A stretch of DNA of 48,861 bases from Caldilineaceae bacterium (lineage in GTDB: Bacteria; Chloroflexota; Anaerolineae; Caldilineales; Caldilineaceae). The notes beneath the pieces are model-generated. The model made no database searches. It saw only the letters and a program-made list of their open reading frames with translations, and was not told the DNA's origin. The position numbers were made by a program, and so were the translations under genes. The stretch lies in assembly GCA_026989655.1 (NCBI GenBank), contig JALSIX010000118.1, positions 1 through 48,861 on the forward strand. The letters run 5' to 3'. Positions 17,898 through 19,936 of the stretch are shown here, piece by piece. Within the stretch, counting starts at the first letter, position 1, and every line of letters starts with the position of its first letter.

Positions 17898-17946
17898 TTC
17901 CCATGCCCAGCAGCAAGGGTGTTGTCGTGTCCGAAAGGAGAGGAAC

Positions 17947-19053
17947 ATGGCCCAGCGACCTCTGACGGCCATGGTGGCCTGCGCGGGTTGAGCGTCCAAG
18001 CTCCCTCCGGGAGCCCTGTCGCAGGTCGTGCGACAACTGGGAGGTCTCTTCCCCACAGACGCATATCCTGAGGTCCTGGTGGGCCTGGGAGAGCCGGACG
18101 ACGCGGCGGTCTACCGGCTGGACGACTCCCGCGCCCTGATCCAGACCACGGACTTCTTCACCCCTATCGTGGATGATCCCTGGATCTACGGGGCCATCGC
18201 GGCGGCCAATGCCATGAGCGATGTCTACGCCATGGGGGGCGAGGTGCTCCTGGCCCTGAACATCGCCGGCTTCCCGGAGGAGGTGGAGGGGACCGTGGTG
18301 GCCCAGGTCCTGGGCGGCGGCGCGGCCAAGGTCCGAGAGGCCGGGGGCGTGGTGGCCGGGGGCCACACGGTGACCAATCCCGAGCCCTTCTACGGCCTGA
18401 GCGTCACCGGGATGGTCCACCCGGAGCGGATCATGCGCAAGGGGGGAGCCCGGCCAGGGGAGCGGCTCTTCCTGACCAAGCCCCTGGGCACGGGCATCAT
18501 CACCACCGCGGCCAAGCTCACCGGGCCGGCCGAGGGTCGGGCCCACCGGATGGCCCGCCGGGCCCAGGGCAAACCGGACCTGGATCCGGCCCATCTGGAG
18601 GCCGCGGTGCTCTCCATGACCCGGCTGAGCCGAGATGCCGCCCGGGCCGCGCAGGAGGCCGGGGTCCAGGGCGCCACGGACGTCACCGGCTTCGGCCTGC
18701 TGGGCCATGCCGCGGAGATGGCCCTGGCCAGCCAGCGGGAGAGGGGCGCCGGCCTGGTGATCCGGGCAGAGGATGTGCCCCACCTGCCCGGCACCATGGA
18801 CTACATCCGGGCCGGCTACCTGACCCGGGGCCACCAACGCAACCCCGAGCACTACGGGCGCTGGGTCCACTTCGCGCCGGGCGTGGCCCCGGAACGACGC
18901 ATCCTGCTCTGGGAGGCGGAGACCAGCGGTGGGCTCCTGCTCTCTGTGCCCTCGGATCGGGTGGAGGCCTTTCGGCAGGCCTGTGCCCAACGCGGCCAGG
19001 CCTGCTGGGAGATCGGGGAGGTGATCGAGGGCGAGGGCGTCCAGGTCATCTGA
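17947..19053 (+). CDS. selD: Selenide, water dikinase SelD containing selenocysteine (in-frame UGA)
   Basis: 368 residues when the in-frame TGA at 17989-17991 is read as selenocysteine (residue 15). Reading from the ATG at 17947 (AAGGAGAGG just upstream) gives LTAMVACAG-U-ASKLPPGAL, the conserved SelD active-site context in which many bacteria have Cys or Sec. The frame then continues unbroken: DDAAVYRL, QTTDFFTPIVDDPW, NAMSDVYAMGG, AGGHTVTNPEPFYGL, TKPLGTGIITTA, GATDVTGFGLLGH and ETSGGLL are all family motifs. SelD makes selenophosphate from selenide and ATP for Sec-tRNA or selenouridine. Because SelD itself needs Sec, the host must also have SelA, SelB and tRNA-Sec. An ATG-like start at 18028 would drop the catalytic residue. 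Confidence 0.93.
17992..18022 (+). promoter_or_regulatory. Putative bacterial SECIS hairpin in selD
   Basis: Directly after the UGA, GCTCCC (18000-18005) and GGGAGC (18009-18014) form a perfect 6-bp stem with a 3-nt loop. GCG (17992-17994) and CGC (18020-18022) can close a longer stem across a 5/5 internal loop. The position fits a bacterial SECIS read by SelB. The loop TCC lacks the G often found there, so register is uncertain. Confidence 0.6.
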
Positions 19054-19106
19054 GAAGCCCAGAGCCCATCCTCACCCTGGCTCCCTCCGGAAGGGGGGGT
19101 GCCATG

Positions 19107-19131
19107 CCCCCGACCGTCAGACGGTCGGGGG
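19107..19131. terminator. Perfect hairpin between convergent selD and DUF898 genes
   Basis: 11-bp perfect stem CCCCCGACCGT (19107-19117)/ACGGTCGGGGG (19121-19131) with a CAG loop. The stop codon of the minus-strand DUF898 gene (19117-19119) lies at the loop. No T-tract on either strand. Confidence 0.55.
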
Positions 19132-19881
19132 GACGTCGGATCCCTCGGGCGACGAGGAGGGAGGCCCGGGCCGCGGAGCCGACTCCGCGGGCGTCTGGGG
19201 CCGGGCAAAGGCGCTCAGGACCGGGGAGTGGATGGGCATGGGCTGGGGAGCTCGCACGGGGACCGGCACCACGGTTCGGACGGTCTCCCAGGCCAGGGCA
19301 CGGACGGTGGCGAAGCCCAAGAGGGCGTAGATCCCCACGGTGACCAGGGTGAGCAGGCCATTGGTCAGAGCCAGGACCAGGTATTCCCCGCCGCTTCCGG
19401 TGAAGTCCAGGGGACGATTGTCCACATAGGTGTGGGTGAGGATGTAGCGCTTGCGGCGCACCCACCCCCAGAAGAAGTAGAGGCCCAGGGTCAGGGGCGT
19501 GAGCAGCCAGATGAGGAAGTTCTCGAAGAAGAGGCCCAGGGCCTCGCCCCGATATTCCAGACGCTGCCCGGTGGGCAGGATGGTGTGGGCGTACTCCCAA
19601 CGCAGCAGACGGGTGCTGGCGTAGCCCAGCACCGCGTAGAGGCCCAGGGTCACCGCGGTCAACGCGGCGATGATGAGGAACTGGACGAAGGCCTGGCCCC
19701 CGGTGCCGTCGAACTGGAGAGGTTTGCCCCGGAAGTAGGTGTTGGTGACGATGACCCGCTTGAAGCGCACATATCCCCAGGGGGCATAGATACCCAGAGT
19801 CAATATGCTGAGGACCGAGACGAGCAAGAGGTTCAGAAAGATATCCACCCAACGGCCGCGGTATTCCAGGGTGTCGTACAT
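19117..19881 (-). CDS. DUF898 (YjgN-like) membrane protein with internal duplication
   Basis: 254 residues. Two copies of the DUF898 unit are visible: LTLGIYAPWGYVRFKRVIVT with YFRGKPLQFDGTGG, and LTLGLYFFWGWVRRKRYILT with YVDNRPLDFTGSGG. Between and around them lie four or five membrane helices. The last 55 residues are a Pro/Ser-rich soluble tail. YjgN-like proteins are membrane proteins of unknown function. ATG 19881 was chosen because the protein begins there with the family's first helix and GGGGAAG precedes it; the promoter 19937-19965 confirms the placement. Confidence 0.82.
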   Translation of the reverse strand: MYDTLEYRGRWVDIFLNLLLVSVLSILTLGIYAPWGYVRFKRVIVTNTYFRGKPLQFDGTGGQAFVQFLIIAALTAVTLGLYAVLGYASTRLLRWEYAHTILPTGQRLEYRGEALGLFFENFLIWLLTPLTLGLYFFWGWVRRKRYILTHTYVDNRPLDFTGSGGEYLVLALTNGLLTLVTVGIYALLGFATVRALAWETVRTVVPVPVRAPQPMPIHSPVLSAFARPQTPAESAPRPGPPSSSPEGSDVPPTV

Positions 19882-19936
19882 AATGGCTTCCCCTTTTCGG
19901 TTGGGAAATTTCCACCGGCCCTCTGCTGCATGTCCA

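Follow-up and report, generated by a model that had tools for sequence, protein, structure and literature searches.

An in-frame UGA in the selD gene of a Caldilineaceae bacterium is predicted to encode selenocysteine at the active site of SelD

The selD gene, coding for selenide water dikinase (selenophosphate synthetase), was located at positions 17947-19053 on the forward strand of a 48,861-nucleotide stretch of DNA from a Caldilineaceae bacterium (contig JALSIX010000118.1, analysed whole and referred to here as the window). It carries an in-frame TGA at 17989-17991 (forward strand), and there is very little doubt in our minds that its product is itself a selenoprotein, with selenocysteine (Sec) at that codon. 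A selenoprotein gene split by UGA had been proposed from the letters of the DNA, and this reading was borne out by the in-frame TGA, the active-site alignment, the decoding machinery found in the genome and the genes of relatives.

Results

The ATG at 17947, the TGA at 17989-17991 and the rest of selD share one reading frame. Read-through translation gives a protein of 368 residues with Sec at position 15, that TGA being the single one within an otherwise intact 368-codon frame, and the stop codon of the gene is a further TGA at 19051-19053. The product begins MAQRPLTAMVACAG-U-ASKLPPGALSQVV, and read-through across 17989-17991 yields CAG-U-ASK. A ribosome site had been claimed to precede the ATG, and a Shine-Dalgarno-like GGAG was indeed present in the upstream sequence AAAGGAGAGGAACATG, the Shine-Dalgarno-like stretch (within AAAGGAGAGGAAC) occupying positions 17935-17943 of the forward strand. 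The mechanical open reading frame call takes as its start a GTG at 18028-18030 on the same strand, beginning in the loop of the probable SECIS hairpin described below, and gives a product of 341 aa. This start loses the first 27 residues of SelD and with them, as the original prediction had warned, the catalytic site.

The assignment of the read-through product to SelD was clear: it scored 338 bits (E 4e-101) with the equivalog model NCBIfam TIGR00476, whose cut-off is 125, and covered positions 2-309 of its 311, a near full-length match. Its best relative of solved structure was the selenide water dikinase PDB 3u0o (E 4e-63). In a HMMER alignment to 3u0o, U15 falls on Cys17 and K18 on Lys20 of E. 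coli SelD, the established catalytic residues of that enzyme, and the N-terminal SelD motif with its catalytic Cys/Sec and Lys is present here as U15 and K18. The UGA at 17989 is almost certainly decoded as selenocysteine at the SelD active site, insertion of Sec being what we infer from the anatomy of the gene, the machinery and the comparative evidence.

SelD was searched for in 298 genomes of the same class, and matches were obtained in 268 of them. Exactly one TGA and no further stop was found in 145 of the 150 SelD matches listed, and the Sec form predominates among these listed matches of the class. TGA was absent from the other five; four (G107, G222, G242 and G270) have a Cys codon (TGT or TGC) at the Sec site and the fifth (G030) an ambiguous base. 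The SelD frame of G030 is of draft-quality sequence and has ambiguous bases (X), the Sec-site residue being one of them. The UGA site of selD is thus occupied by Cys in homologues, as expected of a bacterial selenoprotein. In all 34 TGA loci inspected, that of the window among them, the motif G-U-A-[SAG]-K surrounds the TGA. The relatives that carry a name are Caldilineaceae MAGs, at 66-73% identity.

A probable bacterial SECIS hairpin was found at 18017-18035 (forward strand), with a 7-bp stem (UGUCGCA/UGCGACA) and an apical loop GGUCG, 32 nt past the UGA. The bSECIS model calls for a loop of 3-9 nt with a G in its first two positions, a stem of 4-16 bp, a distance of 16-37 nt from the UGA and a minimum free energy at or below -7.5 (PMC13188914). 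The hairpin, with a loop of 5 nt that opens with GG, 7 bp, 32 nt and -9.5 kcal/mol, lies within all of these limits, as do all 34 sequences at this hairpin, with a spacing of 32-33 nt. Since some 14% of positions drawn at random from the GC-rich window also pass, the bSECIS rules alone prove little and the argument rests on conservation. Across the 34 sequences the pairing was kept in 94.9% of cells, and 12 cells were changed on both sides. None of 500 shuffles equalled the real alignment in covariation score or in pairing, and shifting the pairing partner reduced both. The number of pair positions with double changes was two, which 50 of 500 shuffles also gave and which is not significant by itself; four of the seven pairs are invariant. 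RNAalifold recovered the hairpin unprompted. Synonymous identity at codons 19-25 of the trimmed alignment, which overlie the hairpin, was 0.64 against 0.47 in the gene body, and a seven-codon segment over the hairpin ranked second of 354 by this measure. Single-sequence folding was weakly better than that of shuffles (z -0.8 to -2.4) and is not decisive. Rfam gave the element no support, as near the selD site there was no match at the gathering threshold, and those obtained with a relaxed threshold did not rise above chance. Taken on its sequence conservation, the hairpin at 18017-18035 is most likely a functional SECIS element to which SelB would bind.

The original prediction had placed a hairpin directly after the UGA. 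One does exist at 18000-18014 (forward strand), beginning 9 nt past the UGA, and is probably the one that was meant, but it is poorly conserved: 68.8% of its cells are paired, and three of its six pairs are broken in at least 12 of 31 distinct sequences. It was rejected as a SECIS candidate on this ground and is probably incidental. The conserved hairpin lies mostly past the end coordinate of the original prediction.

The full Sec-decoding system that had been expected of this organism was found in its genome (4.09 Mb, 99% complete). There is one copy of selA (TIGR00474, 528 bits against a cut-off of 268) and one copy of selB over the cut-off (TIGR00475, 325 bits against 242). The latter carries the winged helices SelB-wing_2 and SelB-wing_3 of Pfam, SelB-type winged helices being the domains that read SECIS elements. 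The genome has one tRNA-Sec (73.6 bits against a gathering score of 47), to which ARAGORN assigns the anticodon TCA. The three components needed for a bacterial selenoprotein, selA, selB and tRNA-Sec, are therefore all present. No mnmH/SelU was found over the cut-off in the genome, so that no selenouridine pathway is indicated.

Other hidden selenoproteins had also been anticipated, and in a survey of targeted families one came to light in the alpha subunit of formate dehydrogenase, FdhA (G000:C94:5508; TIGR01591, 763 bits against a cut-off of 666). Its gene has one in-frame TGA, in the motif NCSRA-U-HAPTVAGL, whose U is the known Sec site of FdhA. Although the protein is a different one, fdhA resembles selD of the same genome in having an active-site UGA in frame and a bSECIS-like hairpin with a GGUC loop (GGUCU, related to the GGUCG of selD), which however lies 18 nt past the UGA as against 32 in selD. 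At least two selenoproteins, SelD and FdhA, are thus predicted from the sequence of this genome. The peroxiredoxin/AhpC-TSA, HesB-like and CMD/AhpD families were searched as well, and no match had an internal stop.

The occurrence of tRNA-Sec was checked in 32 relatives, with weak hits re-examined by ARAGORN. It was present in all seven genomes tested from the same family. Among the genomes with Cys-SelD, G107 and G270 showed no tRNA-Sec and the sister genomes G222 and G242 retain it, a pattern consistent with conversion of Sec to Cys and subsequent disappearance of the Sec system. At least two genomes without a SelD match (G043 and G056) have a clear, true tRNA-Sec, and the missing match is probably due to assembly gaps. 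Conversely, no true tRNA-Sec was found in two genomes with a TGA-containing selD: the only hit of G177 is a tRNA-Ser, and G058 has no hit over the threshold, plausibly through incomplete assembly. Six weaker hits in relatives (49-52 bits) were discarded as tRNA-Ser by ARAGORN. The co-occurrence of tRNA-Sec and SelD agrees broadly with the Sec reading, in a supportive but noisy manner.

Discussion

In a draft assembly, an error or a nonsense mutation usually shows itself as a single in-frame stop close to the 5' end of a gene. It could be asked whether selD has become a pseudogene, or whether the TGA arose in sequencing or assembly; a sequencing error at this codon had been named in advance as one of two findings that would overturn the selenoprotein reading. 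However, an identical TGA in an identical motif was found at each of the 34 loci inspected and in 145 of the 150 listed matches, the frame is otherwise intact and the protein strongly conserved, which leaves this explanation with practically no probability; recurrence of the TGA in dozens of independent genomes excludes an error at 17989. We give equally little credence to the proposal that UGA is reassigned or generally suppressed, being read for instance as Trp or Gly with no involvement of selenium. It would explain why the frame is open through the UGA, but the genome has a full Sec-decoding set and the relatives that lost the UGA carry Cys in its place. A global reassignment is excluded by the fact that UGA serves as the stop of selD itself.

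A truncated but functional SelD might instead be translated from the GTG at 18028, the upstream part being a short leader peptide. Such a start codon exists, yet the protein made from it would be without both catalytic residues, Cys/Sec and Lys. The GTG moreover sits inside the stem-loop, and in all 34 relatives the codons ahead of it encode conserved SelD protein sequence, so that we regard a truncated product as very improbable.

Under the selenoprotein reading, the ribosome would initiate at ATG 17947, and SelB-GTP with Sec-tRNA-Sec, docked on the hairpin at 18017-18035, would place Sec at the UGA at 17989. The Sec would come to lie at position 15, the site of the catalytic nucleophile, and translation would continue to the UGA stop at 19051. 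SelD, by its predicted activity, would convert selenide and ATP to selenophosphate, with which SelA would turn Ser-tRNA-Sec into Sec-tRNA-Sec, supplying FdhA as well as SelD itself. As the only SelD found in the genome both needs Sec and makes Sec, it could be imagined that the UGA acts as a selenium-gated switch, in which positive feedback holds the Sec system in an on or an off state and a low-level product of near-cognate readthrough (carrying, for example, Cys) restarts it. We think this unlikely; if true, it would be applicable to any organism with a Sec-SelD as its sole copy.

Sec-SelD has been known for decades. A selD gene with an in-frame UGA is a well-known arrangement, common to nearly all the relatives, and the finding is in this sense true but ordinary. 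As in the Sec-containing SelD of bacteria and the eukaryotic SPS2 (TIGR00476), the UGA stands at the catalytic Cys position, where the Cys and Sec forms are interchangeable, and as in the Sec-containing bacterial SelD a SECIS-type hairpin follows shortly downstream. Cys-SelD (E. coli 3u0o; G107, G222, G242, G270) shares the enzyme family and motif and differs in having Cys in place of Sec. Nothing substantive sets the present gene apart from known Sec-SelD, other than that in its Chloroflexota lineage the Sec form is predominant and not a minority. In a reference set of prokaryotes, 19% of SelD genes were found to have Sec, in every case at this position (Mariotti et al. 2015, PMC4561486), and the predominance of the Sec form among the listed SelD matches of this class stands against that published prokaryote-wide share of about one fifth. 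Among bacterial selenoproteins, SelD and FdhA were listed as the two of widest occurrence, and in Chloroflexi three selenoproteins were recorded and no selenouridine trait was reported (Zhang et al. 2006, PMC1794560), the latter in agreement with SelU not being found in this genome. Selenocysteine formate dehydrogenases have been reported in single-cell genomes of Anaerolineales (PMC4959059). In the literature, Sec-SelD ranks second among prokaryotic selenoproteins by breadth of occurrence, and the use of Sec in Chloroflexota has been reported before. What is new here is an unannotated member of Sec-SelD and the dominance of the Sec form among the SelD matches listed for the class. The main value lies in the correction of the annotation, as the automatic call leaves a key enzyme without its catalytic residue. 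In Chloroflexota of the Caldilineaceae kind, SelD and FdhA probably both contain selenocysteine.

With regard to the surroundings of the gene, the NUDIX and nitroreductase genes found upstream did not flank selD in the loci of relatives examined, and as this neighbourhood is not conserved no operon argument is made. A convergent gene downstream of selD (19046-19912, reverse strand) had no Pfam match. The N-terminal 120 or so residues of its product have counterparts of 29-37% identity near selD in several relatives of the family, and the gene may encode a conserved, uncharacterised protein.
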